Part shown: piece after piece, positions 5,735 to 25,648 of the stretch
Position numbering within the stretch: position 1 is the first letter of the stretch
Layout of the letters: each line of letters starts with the position of its first letter
Assembly: GCA_028718635.1 (NCBI GenBank)
Contig: JAQULK010000003.1
Location: 1 to 33,673, forward strand
DNA length: 33,673 nt
Reading direction: 5' to 3'
From: Candidatus Paceibacterota bacterium
GTDB lineage: Bacteria > Patescibacteriota > Minisyncoccia > Phycocordibacterales > UBA9973
Translations under genes and position numbers: made by a program
Notes under the pieces: generated by a model
Told to the model about the DNA's origin: nothing
The model's database searches: none
What the model saw: the letters and a program-made list of their open reading frames with translations, nothing else

Positions 5735-7738
5735 TTATTTTACTAAAAATTTTAATAATTTATCCTTCAATAAATTATATACTAATAATAAGAAAACAAC
5801 AATTAAAAGAACTGTTTTCCAGTCTAAATCTGAATACCATCCTCGACCAGACTGCAGCTCTATATTTTGATGGATGCCGCCACCAGCTGCGGCCACAAAA
5901 ACTTTTCCCGTATAGGAATTGTAACCGGGCGCTTCTACTTGGAAATAATAAGAACCTTCCGGCACCAGGAATGAATAGGTGCCTCGGATGTCCGTTATTT
6001 GCGGATTTTCTTGCTGGTAATCTTTGGCGTTCCATAATTCATAACTTTTTTTGGCTGTATTTAATTTGTAGAGAGAAACAATAGCGCTTGGAATACGAGT
6101 TTCCTTGCCATTATTTTTCTCAAAGACATACCCTTCCGGATCAATAACCGTAGTCATAGTCATCCTGCGAGTGCCCAAGCTAGGATCGACATAATCAATC
6201 ACGGTAACAATTTGATATTCACCAGCCACGCTAGGAGAAACAACATCAGCCGTATAGATTCCGTCATGGTTTGGGTCAGTATATTCAAAGGAGGAAAGCA
6301 CTAGCTTTTGTTCCACCTCACCCGAACTCTGGCCACCCTCTCCTTTCAGGAGAGGGGCTGGGGGTGAGGTTTTTGCAGGCACTTTTTCAACCAACCCATT
6401 CATAGAAAAAAGAGCTGAGGCGGAAAGCGAGGCGCGAGAAATTTGATTTTGAGCTCGCGAAATTCTCGGCGTGGCTGCTTGAAAAATAAAGTAGCCGGTA
6501 ACACTTTTCGCTTTGCTTACAGGCTTTACTACCAACTTTAATGTTTTTCCAGGAAGAGTATTTATCGTTTGCGCCACTTGACCTCGATCACCGATAGATA
6601 AAGCAACATTCAAATCAACCAACTCGCCGGCTGTTCGGGCAAAGACAAATTCTGACGGCAAATTTTTCTTATCGGCAAGCGAAAAATTGGCCAGCGGCAA
6701 CCCTTCAATCAGAGCAATTTTCCCGGTGCCAACGCTATTAATCATTTTTCCATTTATGCCAGAGACACCGGGAACACCCAGGGTCACACCGTTTAGGCTA
6801 TTTATATTGGTTAGATTCTCCACTCCGACATTTTGGATTGTTTTATTAAGAGTATCCGCTAGGCCAGGAACATTTAAAGTCGCGCCAGTCAATTTACCCA
6901 CATCGGTAAATCTGGTAACTCCGACCTCTTTCAACGTATTGCCAAGCTCGGGGAATTTAGAAGCGAGAATATTTATTTCATACGGCAACGGCGCAAAAAC
7001 GAAAGACTTGATTTCTTTTGCCGGCAAAAGATCCCAGTGCGCGCTGAGCGCCAAAGGCGCAATTTTAGGAACTTGAACAATAACCTTCGGCAGATTATTT
7101 TTAGGTCTAAAGAAATTCAAAAAAAAATTTGAGGCGGAGTTAATGGCTCCTCCAACATTATAGAGTGCGCTCACGACAGGATTTTGAATAATGGGATTCG
7201 GGACAACAATAGGCGGTAAAACTGGTCGGATATAACCCCCTCCGCCACCTCCATGATGCCGAACACTCGCTCTCCTCCAATCCGTCTTTACCTTGAAGTC
7301 TGCGCTACTGCAAGAATTAGCATTGATACAATTAAAATTAATTCGACTGTTATCAGATTTAATCGTGGCATAGCCTAGAAATTCCCCATTTGAATTTATA
7401 GTAACTCCGGTAAAATCAATCCAGCCGATATTTGAACCCCAAGCGTAACCGTAGAGGATGCCTGTGCCGTTATTTTTCACTCCTCCATTATTCGGGCTTA
7501 AATTTATCCAACCATATTGCTTGCTCCAGGCGTATCCTGAAATACCGCTGTCAGTGATTTGCGCGTTGCAATTATCGCAAGCGAAATTTAACCAGCCGAT
7601 ATTTTCTCCCCAAGCGTATTTGTAAGTCACGTCAATTGTTCCGTTGGTTGCTGAAGCAAAAACATTAGACACAGAAAAAATTATGAAAAATAGACTCCCT
7701 AAAAGAAACAACTTCACTTTGGCGGAATTATTCAACAT
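5735..7738 (-). CDS. Surface protein with GWINF-type repeats and C-terminal membrane anchor
   Basis: 667 residues. A signal peptide (VKLFLLGSLFF to VFA, about residues 8-28) is followed by three repeats of the YAWGENIGWLNF / GYAWSKQYGWINL / GYAWGSNIGWIDF type, common in Parcubacteria surface proteins, with paired cysteines (CDNC). A glycine- and proline-rich linker (HHGGGGGGYIRPVLPP) follows, then a long middle region with repeated GVTxFTDVxxLxGxTLxVPG-like units. A carboxypeptidase-regulatory-like beta domain lies near residues 535-630 (GTYSFLVPEGSYYFQVEAPG). A C-terminal hydrophobic segment (TVLLIVVFLLLVY) ends in lysines, so the protein is probably held in the membrane with its bulk outside. 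Residues 457-475 (SPPAPLLKGEG...) are encoded by a palindromic element. The specific role is unknown; adhesion or cell-envelope structure is plausible. Confidence 0.8.
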   Translation of the reverse strand: MLNNSAKVKLFLLGSLFFIIFSVSNVFASATNGTIDVTYKYAWGENIGWLNFACDNCNAQITDSGISGYAWSKQYGWINLSPNNGGVKNNGTGILYGYAWGSNIGWIDFTGVTINSNGEFLGYATIKSDNSRINFNCINANSCSSADFKVKTDWRRASVRHHGGGGGGYIRPVLPPIVVPNPIIQNPVVSALYNVGGAINSASNFFLNFFRPKNNLPKVIVQVPKIAPLALSAHWDLLPAKEIKSFVFAPLPYEINILASKFPELGNTLKEVGVTRFTDVGKLTGATLNVPGLADTLNKTIQNVGVENLTNINSLNGVTLGVPGVSGINGKMINSVGTGKIALIEGLPLANFSLADKKNLPSEFVFARTAGELVDLNVALSIGDRGQVAQTINTLPGKTLKLVVKPVSKAKSVTGYFIFQAATPRISRAQNQISRASLSASALFSMNGLVEKVPAKTSPPAPLLKGEGGQSSGEVEQKLVLSSFEYTDPNHDGIYTADVVSPSVAGEYQIVTVIDYVDPSLGTRRMTMTTVIDPEGYVFEKNNGKETRIPSAIVSLYKLNTAKKSYELWNAKDYQQENPQITDIRGTYSFLVPEGSYYFQVEAPGYNSYTGKVFVAAAGGGIHQNIELQSGRGWYSDLDWKTVLLIVVFLLLVYNLLKDKLLKFLVK
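6315..6370 (-). repeat. In-frame palindromic element in the surface-protein gene
   Basis: Outer arms ACCTCACCC (6315-6323) and GGGTGAGGT (6362-6370) enclose an inner hairpin CCCTCTCC/GGAGAGGG. On the minus strand it adds SPPAPLLKGEGG-type residues without breaking the frame. This is the same general class as the G/C-rich CACC...CCCC elements at 16071, 21879 and 22594. Confidence 0.75.
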
Positions 7739-7757
7739 AAATAAATATTAAAATAAC

Positions 7758-10700
7758 TTAAGCTAATACGACAATATTGACGAGCCTGTTCTTTACGTAA
7801 ATAACTTTTTTTACTTCTTTTGAGCCTATATATTTTAGCACAGTTTCATTGGATAAAGCTTGTTTTTTAATTTGTTCTTCTTCGTCATCCGCTTTTATCA
7901 TCATCTCCGTTTTGACTTTTCCGTTTATCTGCACTGCGATTTTTATTTCTTCATCTTGGATTTTTGAAGGATCGTATTTTGGCCACCCAGAAAGATGAAT
8001 AGATTTTCCAAGAATGGTTCTTGGGGAAACTTCTTTAAGAACCGTTCTTTGCCAGAGTTCCTCTGTGATGTGCGGCGCAAATGGCGCAAGAATCTTTAAA
8101 AACTTTTCATAAGCCGTTTGAGAGATGGATTCAAGCTTCCCCATTTCATTAATGAAAATCATTAAAGTCGAAACAGCTGTATTGAATTTCATCTCCTCGA
8201 TATCCTCTCCGACTTTTTTTATTGTTTTGTTGAGTAAAGTGTCAAAGGCGGCCTTTGACATATTTGGGCTCATGTCAAAGACCGTCTTTGACACTTTTAT
8301 TTGAAGATTCCAAACTCTTTCTAAAAATCTTCTCGGACCAATAATAGCCTCCTCGCTCCAAGCGACGGATTGATTGAAAGGCCCCATAAACATCTCATAA
8401 AGTCGCAATGTATCCGCCCCATATGTTTTTACTATATCGTCTGGATTTATCACGTTACCCCACCTTTTACTCATTTTCCTATTATCACTACCTAAAATCA
8501 TCCCTTGATTTCTGAGTGTTTTAAAAGGCTCTTCAGTTATAACAAGACCATAATCCTTTAGAAATTTGTGCCAAAAACGAGAATATAGTAAGTGCCCAGT
8601 AGCATGTTCTGCTCCACCTACATACATATCCACATTTTTCCAATACTTTATGGCTTTTTTATCAGCAAAAACTTTTTTATTTTTAGGATCCATATAACGA
8701 AGGAAATACCAAGAACTTCCCGCCCAGCCAGGCATTGTATTCGTTTCGTATCCTTTTTTTGCCCAAGTTGAAACACTAGCAAGAGGTGACTCTCCTGTAC
8801 CAGTAGGCTGGTATGATTTCACCGGCGGGAGCTTGAGTGGTAAATCCTTTTCTTTAAGTTCATTTATTATGCCCTCTTTATCATGCCAAAGTGGAATAGG
8901 CTCACCCCAGTATCTCTGACGAGCAAAAATAGCATCTCGCATTTTGTAATTTACTTTTTTCTCTCCCCAACCATTTTTAACAATATAATTAATCACATCT
9001 TCTCGTACTTCTCCCCATTCTCTGCCTTTAAACTCAAGTGGCTCTAAAAGAATACCATTTTTTACGATAGGCTTTTCTATGCCTCGCAGGATATTCCAAT
9101 CATTTAGCATTCCGTCAATTTTCATGATTTTTTCAATATCTCCAGAAGAAACCCATTTCAATTCATGATTGCTTTTTTCTTTCTCTGATAATTCTTTTTG
9201 TTCACCATTTTCTAATTGGAAATAAAAACTAGAAAAATGCACAGAACGATTTTCGTTTTTGGGTATATGATAAAAAATACTATGGGAACGTGGTAATTCT
9301 CTTATAAGTTTTAAATTTTGATATCCTGTTTCTTCTCTTACTTCTCGAATAGCTGCTTCTTTTGGGTCTTCTCCTTTTTCAACTCCACCAGTAACAAAAG
9401 TTACCCAATCAGCTTTTTTCCATAATAAAACTAAATATTTATCTTCAGACCAATGCTTCACAATTGCATGTATAGCATTTCTTTCAACCAAAGGAAGACC
9501 CGGTTTTAGTTCATCAGTAAATAATGGCTCAACAACAGAATGTAAAGGGATATTAAATTTTTTAGCAAAAGCAAAATCACGCGTATCGTGAGCACTAGCA
9601 TTTACTATCCCTGTTCCATAACCAGCCACCACATAGGATGCTACCCATATCGGCAAATCTCTACCACTGCCTGCAAAATTTTCTATATAGCGACCAGTAA
9701 AAATACCCTCCATTTCTTTATTTTCATCATAATCTTTTGCAGATCTTTTCTTTTTTAATTTCTCGACAAAATCTAGTACTGGTTTTTCATATTTAGTACC
9801 TGCGACAAGAGTCGGCACAAGATCGTGTTCTGGCGCGATAACTGTAAAAGTTTCAGCTCGAAACGTTTGAGGTACAGAGTTGTACATTTCAACAGCAATA
9901 TTTAAATCTTTTATTTTACATTTAAAATTTACACCCTCACTTCTCCCTATCCAATTTTTTTGAATTTCTTTTATGTGGGTAGACCAATCAAGACCCTCAA
10001 GACCGGAAAGCAAACGATCAGCATACGCGGTAATACGCATAAACCACTGACGCATATTTTTCTTTACCACGGGATAATTCCCACGCTCGGAAACCAAGCC
10101 ATCTTTAGTGTCTAATATTTCATCATTTGCCAAAACGGTGCCGAGTTTTGGACACCAATTGACCTCGCTATATCCCTCGTAAGCCAAACGATATTTCATT
10201 AAAATATTTTGTTTTTCTTTTTTTGTTTTTGTTTTCCATTCTGTTGCAGAAAATTTTTCAACTTCACTAGAAATAGCGTTAACTTTTTTATTTCCAAATT
10301 TTTCAAAAATTTTAACTAATTTATCTATTGGCTCTGCTTTATTTGCGTCTTTGTTGTACCAAGAATTATAAATTTTCAAAAAAATCCATTGAGTCCAGTG
10401 GTAAAAATCAGGATCTGTGGTGTTTACTCTTCTACTCCAATCATATGAAAGTCCTATAATAGAAAGTTGTTTTTCAAATGTTTTTACATTTTTTTCTACT
10501 GCCTGTTTTGGATTGATGTTATGCTCAATGGCATATTGTTCTGCCGGCAAACCAAAAGCATCATAACCCATGGGGTGAAGCACATTGAAGCCCTGCATTC
10601 TTTTAAGACGAGCAAAAACATCTGAACCGATATAGCCTTTCGGGTGTCCAACATGCAGTCCTACTCCGGATGGATATGGAAACATATCCAATACATAGTA

Positions 10701-10799
10701 TTTTTTCTTTTTAGAATTGTTTAAGGTTTTATAAACTCCTTTTTTCTCCCAAATAGTTTGCCATTTTTTTTCAATTTTCTTATGATCGTATTCTTTCAT
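7758..10799 (-). CDS. leuS: Leucyl-tRNA synthetase with inserted Nudix hydrolase domain
   Basis: 1013 residues, longer than the usual 800-870. LeuRS charges tRNA-Leu with leucine in the cytoplasm. The catalytic HIGH motif is HVGH (residues 49-52) after FPYPSG, and the KMSKS motif reads KMSKR (775-779) in SDNRKMSKRWGNVINPDDIV. The CP1 editing domain is present (AHDTRDFAFAKKF, 403-415), but the usual TTRPDT threonine-rich peptide is not seen; the equivalent reads VPQTFRAETFTVIAPEH. Between CP1 and RQRYWGEPIP (628-637) lies a complete Nudix fold, about residues 438-572. Its box fits G-x5-E-x7-REVREETGY exactly (471-493). A palindromic insert encodes residues 835-854 before the anticodon-binding helices (NKTIKKVGEDIEEMKFNTA). 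The start ATG abuts a stem-loop element upstream. Synthetase function is near certain; Nudix activity is inferred. Confidence 0.95.
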   Translation of the reverse strand: MKEYDHKKIEKKWQTIWEKKGVYKTLNNSKKKKYYVLDMFPYPSGVGLHVGHPKGYIGSDVFARLKRMQGFNVLHPMGYDAFGLPAEQYAIEHNINPKQAVEKNVKTFEKQLSIIGLSYDWSRRVNTTDPDFYHWTQWIFLKIYNSWYNKDANKAEPIDKLVKIFEKFGNKKVNAISSEVEKFSATEWKTKTKKEKQNILMKYRLAYEGYSEVNWCPKLGTVLANDEILDTKDGLVSERGNYPVVKKNMRQWFMRITAYADRLLSGLEGLDWSTHIKEIQKNWIGRSEGVNFKCKIKDLNIAVEMYNSVPQTFRAETFTVIAPEHDLVPTLVAGTKYEKPVLDFVEKLKKKRSAKDYDENKEMEGIFTGRYIENFAGSGRDLPIWVASYVVAGYGTGIVNASAHDTRDFAFAKKFNIPLHSVVEPLFTDELKPGLPLVERNAIHAIVKHWSEDKYLVLLWKKADWVTFVTGGVEKGEDPKEAAIREVREETGYQNLKLIRELPRSHSIFYHIPKNENRSVHFSSFYFQLENGEQKELSEKEKSNHELKWVSSGDIEKIMKIDGMLNDWNILRGIEKPIVKNGILLEPLEFKGREWGEVREDVINYIVKNGWGEKKVNYKMRDAIFARQRYWGEPIPLWHDKEGIINELKEKDLPLKLPPVKSYQPTGTGESPLASVSTWAKKGYETNTMPGWAGSSWYFLRYMDPKNKKVFADKKAIKYWKNVDMYVGGAEHATGHLLYSRFWHKFLKDYGLVITEEPFKTLRNQGMILGSDNRKMSKRWGNVINPDDIVKTYGADTLRLYEMFMGPFNQSVAWSEEAIIGPRRFLERVWNLQIKVSKTVFDMSPNMSKAAFDTLLNKTIKKVGEDIEEMKFNTAVSTLMIFINEMGKLESISQTAYEKFLKILAPFAPHITEELWQRTVLKEVSPRTILGKSIHLSGWPKYDPSKIQDEEIKIAVQINGKVKTEMMIKADDEEEQIKKQALSNETVLKYIGSKEVKKVIYVKNRLVNIVVLA
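8236..8297 (-). repeat. Double palindromic element inside leuS
   Basis: There are two 21-nt palindromes: 8240-8260 with arms TGTCAAAGGC/GCCTTTGACA and 8273-8293 with arms TGTCAAAGAC/GTCTTTGACA, each around a single central base. The pair is itself an inverted repeat bounded by AAAGTGTC and GACACTTT. It is translated in frame as VSKTVFDM...NMSKAAFDT at LeuRS residues 836-854, at a junction where other LeuRS proteins have a shorter link. The same unit occurs at 12768-12788. Confidence 0.88.
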
Positions 10800-14990: not shown

Positions 14991-15653
14991 TTAATAGAAA
15001 TGTTTACCAATAATCATTTCTTCTCCTTTCTTATCATTTTTCGCTTTTAAAATTTCTTTCAAAGAAGACTCAGCAAAAATCTTATAATCTTTTTTTGATC
15101 TAAACTGTCCTAATATTACGTCTTTCGAGCAAATATTTCTACTGGCCTTTCCTATATATTCATCCCAACTTGATCTAACTCTCTCAGCGGTTGAACCGCT
15201 GATATTATGGACTTTCCAATTTAAATTCACATACGCGCTATCATGCAACAACTGTTCATTGGATTTTATATGGACTGACTTAAATCTTCCTTGGAAAAGG
15301 GCGCCTGATCTTTTATGTTTGTTGTTAAAATACCATGTGTATCCTCCTCCAAGTCTTTTCATAAATTCGCTTATGCCTCCTTCGTAAATTTCTCTCAGCA
15401 AAAGGTGGTAATGATTTGGATTTAAGCAGTAACAAACAATTTCCACCAAGGGCTCTTTAGATTTTATATTTTTGTCATTTTCACTAGAAACAACTTCACG
15501 CAAACTTATTATAGGATCTTTTGAATTAAAAAATTCTAGACTTTGCATGAATCTTTCGGCATCTACTTTATCTTTGGTAATTGATCTTTTATCAACCCCG
15601 CGATTGTAGACATGGTAACACTCTCCTAATGCTATTTTTTCTCTGTTTGCCAT
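14991..15653 (-). CDS. REP-associated tyrosine transposase (IS200-like Y1 family)
   Basis: 220 residues. The start MANREKIALGECYHVYNRGVDKR is the typical opening of IS200-like/RAYT proteins. The HUH metal-binding motif is HYH (81-83) in CYCLNPNHYHLLLR. ALFQGRFKSVHIK and the AYVNLNWKVHN helix follow, and Y190 (KKDYKIF) is a candidate catalytic tyrosine. The family cuts and joins single-stranded DNA at hairpins. Four copies of one 17-bp palindrome surround the gene (14177, 14970, 15674) or lie in it (15185), as expected for a transposase that acts on REP elements. The internal copy encodes ISGSTAER, where homologues have a variable loop before WSS-Y. The protein looks intact. Confidence 0.88.
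   Translation of the reverse strand: MANREKIALGECYHVYNRGVDKRSITKDKVDAERFMQSLEFFNSKDPIISLREVVSSENDKNIKSKEPLVEIVCYCLNPNHYHLLLREIYEGGISEFMKRLGGGYTWYFNNKHKRSGALFQGRFKSVHIKSNEQLLHDSAYVNLNWKVHNISGSTAERVRSSWDEYIGKASRNICSKDVILGQFRSKKDYKIFAESSLKEILKAKNDKKGEEMIIGKHFY
15185..15201. repeat. REP-like palindrome, copy 3, inside the transposase gene
   Basis: Identical 17-nt CAGCGGTTG/AACCGCTG unit with different flanks (CTCT before, ATATT after). It is translated in frame as part of ISGSTAERV near residues 151-158, so it did not break the gene. Confidence 0.88.
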
Positions 15654-24062: not shown

Positions 24063-24521
24063 TTATCTTCTAATTTTTAACAAGTGATTTTTATAAACCT
24101 TCGCTTTATAAGGTTTTAAGCGCACGATTTTTATAGGAATACCTTTATCTTTTAGGTCCTTTCTAAGTTCTTGTACATAAGCCTTTTGGTCATAACCCAG
24201 AGCAACAATATCTACTTTTTCTCTTAGTATATGCGGTAAATATTTTTCTTTACCTGCTAAAATTACTTTATCTGCTAAACCACTTTTTTTTACCAAAAAC
24301 ATTCTTTCCTTTTCATTTTTTATCGGGTACTTTCCTTTAATTCTTTTCACATTTTTATCTCTAGCAATTGAAACAATTAAAAATGAATTCTTCATGAAGC
24401 TTTTCGCTTGTTTAAAAAAATTGACGTGTCCGGAGTGCAGTCCATCAAAAGTCCCAAAAACCATTATTTTTATTCGTGCATTTATTGCTTTTTTTTTAAT
24501 ATCCACATTTGTCTTTGACAT
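24063..24521 (-). CDS. Cytidylyltransferase-like nucleotidyltransferase (RibL/TagD type)
   Basis: 152 residues. The nucleotide-binding signature GTFDGLHSGH (23-32) with HxGH is followed by the VSIARDKNVKRIKGKYPIKNEKERMFLVKK region and later LGYDQKAYV. This is the single-domain adenylyl/cytidylyltransferase family, which includes glycerol-3-phosphate cytidylyltransferase and archaeal FAD synthase RibL. The sequence does not decide the substrate. Its start codon region overlaps the -35 box of the divergent riboswitch promoter (TTGACAT is the complement of ATGTCAA), so the two transcripts may interfere. Confidence 0.82.
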   Translation of the reverse strand: MSKTNVDIKKKAINARIKIMVFGTFDGLHSGHVNFFKQAKSFMKNSFLIVSIARDKNVKRIKGKYPIKNEKERMFLVKKSGLADKVILAGKEKYLPHILREKVDIVALGYDQKAYVQELRKDLKDKGIPIKIVRLKPYKAKVYKNHLLKIRR

Positions 24522-24542
24522 AATATAAAGTAAGTATATACT
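24515..24542 (+). promoter_or_regulatory. Sigma-70-type promoter of the cobalamin riboswitch transcript
   Basis: TTGACA (24515-24520), 16-bp spacer, TATACT (24537-24542). This predicts a transcript start near 24549, about 20 nt before the aptamer. It is the best promoter match I see in the window and supports the riboswitch reading. Confidence 0.75.
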
Positions 24543-24569
24543 AAAAGAGTTCGCTTGAAAATTAAAAGA

Positions 24570-24706
24570 ATTGATTGGGGAAACTGGTGACCCGCCTGTG
24601 CAGGCAGGGATTCCAGTACAGTGCCGCTACGGTAAGCTCTGACTTAGGTCAGAGACAAGTCCGAATACCAATCATTTTGCTCCGCCAGTTGGCGGATCCC
24701 GAGCAG
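24570..24706 (+). promoter_or_regulatory. Cobalamin (vitamin B12) riboswitch
   Basis: Conserved blocks occur in order: GGGGAAACTGGTGA, a hairpin (GCCTG/CAGGC), ATTCCAGT, ACAGTGCCGCTACGGTAA, a hairpin (CTCTGAC/GTCAGAG), then AAGTCCGAATACCAATCA. ACTGG pairs with CCAGT, and TGATTGG (24572-24578) pairs with CCAATCA to close the core. The TACGGTAA and TCCGAATACC blocks resemble the short class II (hydroxocobalamin-type) aptamers, and the peripheral P8-P12 arm of class I is absent. After the core, TGCTC/GAGCA encloses another hairpin (CCGCC/GGCGG). A terminator follows at 24739 and the gene at 24782. Ligand class and the off-switch mode are inferred. Confidence 0.8.
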
Positions 24707-24738
24707 GAATTATCAAGACCTAATAGCTTGATATGTCG

Positions 24739-24762
24739 ACTCCTCTCGGTAGGAGTTTTTTT
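24739..24762 (+). terminator. Intrinsic terminator of the riboswitch expression platform
   Basis: ACTCCT/AGGAGT stem with a 6-nt loop and a run of seven T (24756-24762), 19 bp before the ATG of the DUF4430 gene. A 7-bp hairpin, TATCAAG/CTTGATA (24711-24733), lies between aptamer and terminator. The arrangement fits transcriptional attenuation when cobalamin binds. Confidence 0.78.
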
Positions 24763-24781
24763 ATTTATAAATTAAAAATAT

Positions 24782-25648
24782 ATGAAAAAAAGTCTATTAA
24801 GTTTTTTGTTTACGTTAGTATTATTGTCTGCAGTAAGTAATTTTGCATTGGCTGAAGGAGTAAATGTAAATTTAACAGTAAAAAATAACGGCGAAGTTGT
24901 TTATGTTGGAAGTGTAGCTTTGCTTCCTGCCGGAACCATCAGTATAAATGATTCGAGTGGAAATCCTCACGATACAAATGCAGACAGTGTACTCTCAATA
25001 GTTAATATTGCTGATGCTTCGAGTGGGGAATTTAATATTTCCAATTTGATTTATTACGACATGTTCAGCGCTTTTTATTTGAAGTGTATTAACGTCTCTG
25101 GATCTGAATTGTGTGATAATTGGCAATACAAAGTAGATGGCGACAGTCCAGCTATGGGAATGGATTCAAAAATTTTATCCGGGGGAGAAAATGTTGTCCT
25201 ATATTTTGGAGACGAAAACAAGACACCAGCCCCAACACCAGAACCAGAGCCAGAGCCAGAAACCCCGCCAGTTCATAGGAGCAGTGGAGGAGGAGGATAT
25301 ATTGTTTTAAATACTGTCTGCGAAGAAGGAACAAAATTTAGTGCTACCACAGGCCGACCCTGCACATCTTTTATTCCTTCCTCTATACCCGTTTCTCCAA
25401 CAGTCACCCCTCCTTTACTAAATGTAAATCTTGAAGAAAAACTCCTCGGACATAGTCCTACGGACGAGTCAAAATCTGTTTTTCTTCCAACCACAGAAAA
25501 ACTAAGCAAAAAAACAAACGAAGCTGTAAAACAAAATACTGCCACAGTTATAAATGCTGTCTCTCAAACTCCTTCTATTCCTCAAACAGAAACTCCAAAG
25601 AAAAGCTGGTGGAATAGATTTTGGGATAATATTTTTAGTATTTTTTAA
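24782..25648 (+). CDS. Exported DUF4430 (transcobalamin-like) surface protein under B12 riboswitch control
   Basis: 288 residues. A signal peptide (MKKSLLSFLFTLVLLSAV, probable cleavage after FALA near residue 24) leads into a domain of about 115 residues. Its pattern NADSVLSIVNIAD...SNLIYYDMFSAFYLKCI...DNWQYKVDGDSPAMGMDSKILSGGENVVLYF fits DUF4430, the fold of the C-terminal domain of transcobalamin and intrinsic factor. A proline/glutamate linker, a GGGG segment, and a CEEGTKFSATTGRPC motif follow. The C-terminus is KKSWWNRFWDNIFSIF, an amphipathic aromatic tail. I infer a cell-surface cobalamin binder made when B12 is scarce; the riboswitch upstream supports this independently. Binding itself is not shown. 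The stop overlaps the convergent neighbour by 14 bp. Confidence 0.8.
   Translation: MKKSLLSFLFTLVLLSAVSNFALAEGVNVNLTVKNNGEVVYVGSVALLPAGTISINDSSGNPHDTNADSVLSIVNIADASSGEFNISNLIYYDMFSAFYLKCINVSGSELCDNWQYKVDGDSPAMGMDSKILSGGENVVLYFGDENKTPAPTPEPEPEPETPPVHRSSGGGGYIVLNTVCEEGTKFSATTGRPCTSFIPSSIPVSPTVTPPLLNVNLEEKLLGHSPTDESKSVFLPTTEKLSKKTNEAVKQNTATVINAVSQTPSIPQTETPKKSWWNRFWDNIFSIF

Follow-up and report, generated by a model that had tools for sequence, protein, structure and literature searches.

Described transcobalamin-like and B12-uptake systems

Bacterial transcobalamin-like proteins of the SLBB superfamily were predicted in 2007 to act as B12 scavengers (Burroughs et al., PMC1796856). These proteins are exported, may carry a toroid, on one side or the other, and often occur as two paralogues per operon in hosts without B12 synthesis, comprising Firmicutes, planctomycetes and euryarchaea, with CbiO/CbiQ operons among the gene contexts; the ligands of the SLBB superfamily are diverse, and the main text mentions neither a riboswitch nor a ribonucleotide reductase (PMC1796856). 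Human transcobalamin beta expressed alone binds cobalamin, the apo form requiring extensive washing (PMC5599065). The best-known parallel for the associated genes is the nrdJ-cbrS-cbrT-pduO cluster of Lactobacillus delbrueckii (PMC5997447).

Organization of the locus

The locus analysed here lies in a stretch of 33,673 nucleotides from a Candidatus Paceibacterota bacterium (the window), whose genome (G000; 761 kb, 98.7% complete, 4 contigs) was searched for named families. The preliminary description had proposed a near-consensus promoter, a cobalamin aptamer of the short class, a terminator and a gene for an exported DUF4430 protein, and these parts follow one another in that order within about 290 bp. 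The sigma-70-like promoter, TTGACA-16-TATACT (24515-24542, + strand), agrees with the consensus at 11 of 12 positions, and of 44 homologous loci, 32 have an upstream site that matches at 10 or more of the 12 positions, compared with 4.5% of shuffles; the TTGACA of the window promoter also overlaps the start codon of a divergent gene.

Elsewhere in the window, a class I tRNA synthetase with a leucyl-type editing domain carries a NUDIX domain inserted at residues 454-555 (7758-10799, - strand), and an IS200-like Y1 transposase ORF (PF01797) occupies 14991-15653 (- strand). Rfam matches in the window to miR-430, mir-2, mir-7359 and SNORD22, all eukaryotic families and all below their cut-offs, were set aside as chance.

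The predicted cobalamin aptamer

The predicted aptamer extends over 24569-24677 (+), with closing arms at 24569-24578 and 24668-24677, inside a covariance-model match to RF00174 at 24529-24690 (+) that scores 31.5 bits, exactly equal to the gathering cut-off (E 1.7e-4 when the window is searched with all families), and is the single match in the 761-kb genome (E 9e-7). The short-class assignment holds, the RNA having 11 nt where the model has 59. Homologues score up to 45.9 bits, many of them above the gathering cut-off, and RF00174 matches occur in 52 of 149 genomes and, within the genus, in 46 of the 80 species searched. In an alignment of 36 copies, 13 of 25 aptamer pairs display changes on both sides and 94.3% of cells are paired, compared with 23-53% when the partners are slid by 1-3 columns; none of 500 shuffles reaches the observed score. 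The short periphery and the L5 hairpin are a likelier cause of the borderline RF00174 score than chance is. Cobalamin is the predicted ligand.

Three hairpins characterize the window copy: (i) an extra hairpin in loop L5 (24591-24609, +), visible in the alignment and the sequence and missing in most homologues; (ii) the peripheral hairpin of the short aptamer, CTCTGAC-TTAG-GTCAGAG (24637-24654, +), an inverted repeat that corresponds to the strongly covarying helix 6; and (iii) a perfect hairpin, TCCGCCA/TGGCGGA (24681-24696, +), in the gap between aptamer and antiterminator, not found at this place in aligned homologues. The hairpins at 24591-24609 and 24681-24696 are GC-rich insertions in and just after the aptamer, and several relatives carry different hairpins at the L5 position, as if small palindromes inserted repeatedly. 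Inspection by eye disclosed no conserved complementary loop for an L5-L13 kissing interaction, the window L5 being replaced by a hairpin; a loop complementarity TTAGGTC/GACCTAA, by eye not kept in relatives, was treated as chance. In one relative (L076, genome G019; aptamer around 7669-7900), an insertion of ~100 nt inside the peripheral hairpin holds a hairpin with a T-run.

The putative expression platform

Downstream of the aptamer, the putative antiterminator strand CCCGAGCAGGA (24698-24708, +) is identical in 36 of 36 aligned copies, and its invariant part CCGAGCAGGA (24699-24708) can pair with the terminator at its 5' arm and loop. An accessory hairpin, TATCAAG...CTTGATA (24711-24733, +), separates this strand from the intrinsic terminator, which consists of a stem at 24738-24757 plus a U-run (24738-24762 in all, +), lies between aptamer and gene as had been described, and has an equivalent in all 42 platform copies. 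An intrinsic terminator begins 30-69 nt downstream of the element in 42 of 42 loci having it. In 39 of 42 copies the pairing of element with terminator 5' arm and loop beats composition shuffles (p<=0.05); the duplex energy averages -11.2 kcal/mol, compared with -7.8 kcal/mol for the terminator, and is -13.1 kcal/mol in the window. Two unrelated terminator stems, UUCUGC... and CUCCUCUCGG..., are both complementary to the same element. Since the invariant CCGAGCAGGA can pair with the terminator 5' arm, B12-OFF transcriptional control is likely, as judged from the antiterminator anatomy and general knowledge of cobalamin riboswitches.

The exported protein

The gene (24782-25648, +) encodes an exported 288-aa protein, which its translation and alignment with long homologues suggest to be a shortened transcobalamin-like protein. 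It comprises (i) a signal peptide recognized by eye and in the alignment (residues 1-24; 24782-24853, +); (ii) a transcobalamin beta-like (DUF4430/SLBB) domain as modelled by AlphaFold and fold comparison (residues 25-148; 24854-25225, +); (iii) a Pro/Glu/Gly-rich stalk, which in the alignment takes the place of the relatives' alpha/alpha barrel (25226-25597, +); and (iv) a C-terminal tail, KKSWWNRFWDNIFSIF (25598-25645, +), a conserved end common to the long homologues and a possible membrane-associating segment.

The Pfam DUF4430 (PF14478) match covers residues 112-143 only, at 18.3 bits in the protein scan and 21.7 in the genome search against a cut-off of 23.8, and being partial and below the cut-off it makes the protein claim weak by sequence alone; the compact siblings in G023, G044 and G079 score 26.2, 25.2 and 24.7, respectively, all passing 23.8. 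No solved transcobalamin homologue was retrieved by sequence-profile search, and it is fold comparison that finds the likeness. The AlphaFold model of residues 25-148, built with 51 homologues, reaches a pLDDT of 94.7, and animal B12 carriers fill its first 17 Foldseek matches as well as the first 14 VIA rows, with Z scores of 10.6-12.9 over 95-98 aligned residues (best values: haptocorrin 12.9, intrinsic factor 12.0, transcobalamin 11.5), followed by the Ruminococcus gnavus protein 3u7z (9.6) and then by sulfur-carrier/ubiquitin-like folds. In the model, helix 46-57 precedes five strands, not three, corresponding to a beta-hairpin insert after the helix (DSSP compared with PMC1796856). The DUF4430 assignment of the preliminary description is retained for the predicted fold, that of a transcobalamin beta domain and of the animal B12 carriers named there. 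The two checks on which that description had made its reading depend, covariance search and predicted fold, returned a cobalamin aptamer and a transcobalamin beta fold.

Cobalamin binding by the window protein is suggested by the model. A binder consisting of the beta domain only is plausible because the isolated human beta domain binds cobalamin, and its affinity would probably be reduced by the lack of the alpha/alpha barrel, which completes the cobalamin site in animal carriers.

Relatives and loss of the barrel

Behind the switch, most species encode a small DUF4430 protein (~150 aa) and a protein of ~500-880 aa, in which a beta domain precedes a squalene-cyclase-like alpha/alpha barrel. 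The model of the relatives' barrel superimposes on intrinsic factor with a Z of 20.6 over 235 residues; squalene-hopene cyclases score higher, 24. Alignment with the long proteins covers both ends of the window protein, which lacks the barrel, and its locus has neither the barrel nor the small DUF4430 paralogue; at E<=1e-5 the rest of the genome gave no alpha/alpha barrel. The barrel-less proteins of G000, G023, G044 and G079 compose one clade (support 99/99), so a single loss explains them all. This clade, of at least four species, keeps the signal peptide, both cysteines, the invariant Trp, the stalk and the tail, together with the promoter, aptamer and terminator. By alignment, the window protein is best described as a shortened descendant of a two-domain transcobalamin-like protein. 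No relatives were found on viral contigs, and the beta domain gave no tblastn match to plasmids.

Coupling of the switch to transcobalamin-like genes

Scanning the long-protein alignment against the genomes of 84,980 species returned 124 relatives, and the loci of the best 80 of these were chosen by the barrel protein alone, the aptamer then being located by a covariance model built in this analysis. Of these best 80 loci of 124, 69 have an aptamer on the same strand, upstream at a median distance of 510 nt. This count is not wholly independent because some loci come from genomes used in training the model or in seeding the alignment; the aptamer matches in other lineages are independent. At least four of the 11 misses among the best 80 begin too near a contig end. 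All of the best 80 of 124 are titled as Patescibacteria lineages or unclassified bacteria, including Nomura-, Kaiser-, Magasanik-, Adler-, Doudna-, Lipton-, Taylor- and Wildermuthbacteria, among others. Where relatives carry the switch, transcobalamin-like genes are almost always coupled to it.

In L101, L103, L072 and L083 (G034, G057, G064 and G120), the aptamer precedes another operon, which encodes a Glu-rich protein of 640-714 aa, a ClpB-D2-like AAA ATPase, a small protein and a VirD4/TraG-like ATPase.

Probable B12 requirement and candidate uptake genes

A survey of B12-dependent enzymes in the window's own genome disclosed a putative AdoCbl-type ribonucleotide reductase (RTPR), a PduO-type adenosyltransferase and an ECF-S-like protein, encoded side by side at G000:C1:256347-259970 (L091); the riboswitch of at least eight relatives has the same trio immediately upstream. 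The reductase scores 281.7 with TIGR02505, below the NCBI cut-off of 340, and its PF21995 B12-dependent insertion domain scores 30.9, over the cut-off of 27. The ECF-S assignment is weak, the protein scoring 23.1 with PF07155 (cut-off 26.7) and having CbrT 6fnp as its sole PDB match (E 0.54). The genome has no EcfT match (PF02361, E<=1), and the absence of BtuBFCD-like genes noted for the window extends, for the BtuC-type (FecCD) permease, to the whole genome. From these salvage genes, the organism presumably lacks B12 synthesis.

Class II reductases were counted with TIGR02505, since TIGR02504 mixes class I and class II enzymes; class I was confirmed by PF00268 beside one example. The switch is present in 41 of 53 RTPR-only genomes of the genus versus 0 of 14 class-I-only genomes, counts that are not independent of phylogeny owing to the close relatedness of the genomes. 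In another relative (L093:7797-11004, G092), the aptamer directly precedes a class I ribonucleotide reductase, comprising a small subunit with ATP-cone and then NrdE-prime; this is the classic arrangement for switching to a B12-independent enzyme. A weak match to a B12-binding domain in the window's genome (G000:C1:512300-512509, L189; 19.8 versus 32.1 bits), within a 526-aa frame, perhaps marks a B12-binding radical SAM protein.

Proposed mechanism and alternative explanations

The locus is read, with good confidence, as a riboswitch-controlled B12-scavenging module, for which we infer the ligand, the OFF direction, binding by the protein, surface attachment and hand-over; aptamer conservation and covariation, the platform, the predicted fold, gene context and co-occurrence support this reading. 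When cobalamin is scarce, CCGAGCAGGA would pair with the terminator 5' arm and loop, allowing transcription of the 288-aa gene, and cobalamin on the aptamer would disfavour this antiterminator pairing, leaving the terminator at 24738-24762 free to form and end transcription. The gene product would be exported, and a stalk at the cell surface would carry its transcobalamin-type beta-grasp domain, which may there bind cobalamin or a related corrinoid and pass the ligand to the membrane; the recipient is probably the ECF-S-like protein, whose gene neighbours that of the ribonucleotide reductase. AdoCbl, which the class II enzyme needs, would then be made by the PduO-type adenosyltransferase.

That the barrel-less protein might instead be a decaying remnant, the switch working without useful capture and uptake proceeding via the ECF-S-like protein alone, appears unlikely. 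In favour of decay are the absence of the barrel and of the small DUF4430 paralogue from the locus, the lack of any other barrel in the genome at E<=1e-5, and the dependence of the animal site on both domains for sub-picomolar affinity (PMC5599065); nevertheless, the 99/99 clade of at least four species has kept the protein features along with promoter, aptamer and terminator, and the isolated human beta domain still binds cobalamin (PMC5599065). The B12-capture role proposed in the preliminary description is upheld as to aptamer, fold, coupling and B12 need, and is qualified in that the window protein represents the beta half only.

It is more improbable still that the protein binds another ligand, such as another corrinoid, a polysaccharide or a partner protein, and is merely co-regulated by B12. 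SLBB proteins bind diverse ligands (PMC1796856), the ligand cannot be read from the sequence by itself, and profile searches matched none of the solved transcobalamins. Against this, all of the best-scoring structural neighbours are cobalamin carriers, well ahead of other beta-grasp proteins, and the relatives add a matching alpha/alpha barrel (intrinsic factor Z 20.6; squalene-hopene cyclases 24). A chance match of the RNA, at which a score equal to the gathering cut-off might hint, has a negligible probability given homologues at up to 45.9 bits, strong covariation and the recovery of the aptamer by its own model upstream of 69 of 80 protein-selected loci (best 80 of 124).

Beyond the B12-scavenging module itself, a broader and distinctly tentative proposal is that reduced-genome Patescibacteria might acquire B12 in intact form, from host cells or the environment, via riboswitch-tuned surface transcobalamins that deliver it to a motor-less S-component, adenosylation acting as the trap, with one lineage having pared the carrier down to a single working beta domain. 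For cofactors that ultra-small Patescibacteria apparently cannot make, the locus offers, in the case of B12, a concrete, testable route tied to an essential step of DNA-precursor synthesis. In addition, the 2007 proposal of bacterial transcobalamin-like B12 scavengers gains regulatory and genomic support, and comparing the two-domain with the barrel-less forms that occur in nature would be a way to ask what each transcobalamin half contributes.

Comparison with known systems

In the open-licence literature nothing was found joining cobalamin riboswitches or transcobalamin-like proteins with CPR/Patescibacteria, and as far as that literature goes, the Patescibacteria, the riboswitch and the barrel-less form are new. 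The window RNA shares with RF00174 the common core helices, the CCGCTACGGTA hairpin and the place before B12 genes, but differs in its short periphery and extra L5 hairpin; its platform is built on the invariant CCGAGCAGGA as putative antiterminator strand.

The gene neighbourhood resembles the L. delbrueckii nrdJ-cbrS-cbrT-pduO cluster in bringing together a putative class II reductase, an ECF-S-like protein and PduO, and differs in gene order, in the attached DUF4430/transcobalamin-like genes and riboswitch, and in that no EcfT was found in the genome. As with BtuM, a solitary cobalamin S-component (PMC6072759), an S-component-like protein stands beside a cobalamin adenosyltransferase in a genome where no EcfT was found; the protein here resembles CbrT/PF07155 weakly, by sequence, and recalls BtuM by its context.

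Human transcobalamin, intrinsic factor and haptocorrin share their fold with both domains of the relatives and with the beta domain of the window protein. Unlike in the human carriers, the order in the relatives is reversed, with beta first, the window protein has no alpha domain, and the proteins are bacterial, with a putative surface stalk as opposed to receptor-mediated endocytosis. The proteins of PMC1796856 are of the same predicted kind: there as here, an exported beta-grasp domain occurs alone or fused to a toroid, often with a second paralogue, whereas Patescibacteria, the cobalamin riboswitch, the class II reductase context, the barrel-less form and a genome in which no EcfT was found set the present loci apart. 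Given the 2007 prediction, the locus is thus of a known predicted kind; what it adds is a new group of organisms, evidence from regulation and a variant lacking the barrel.
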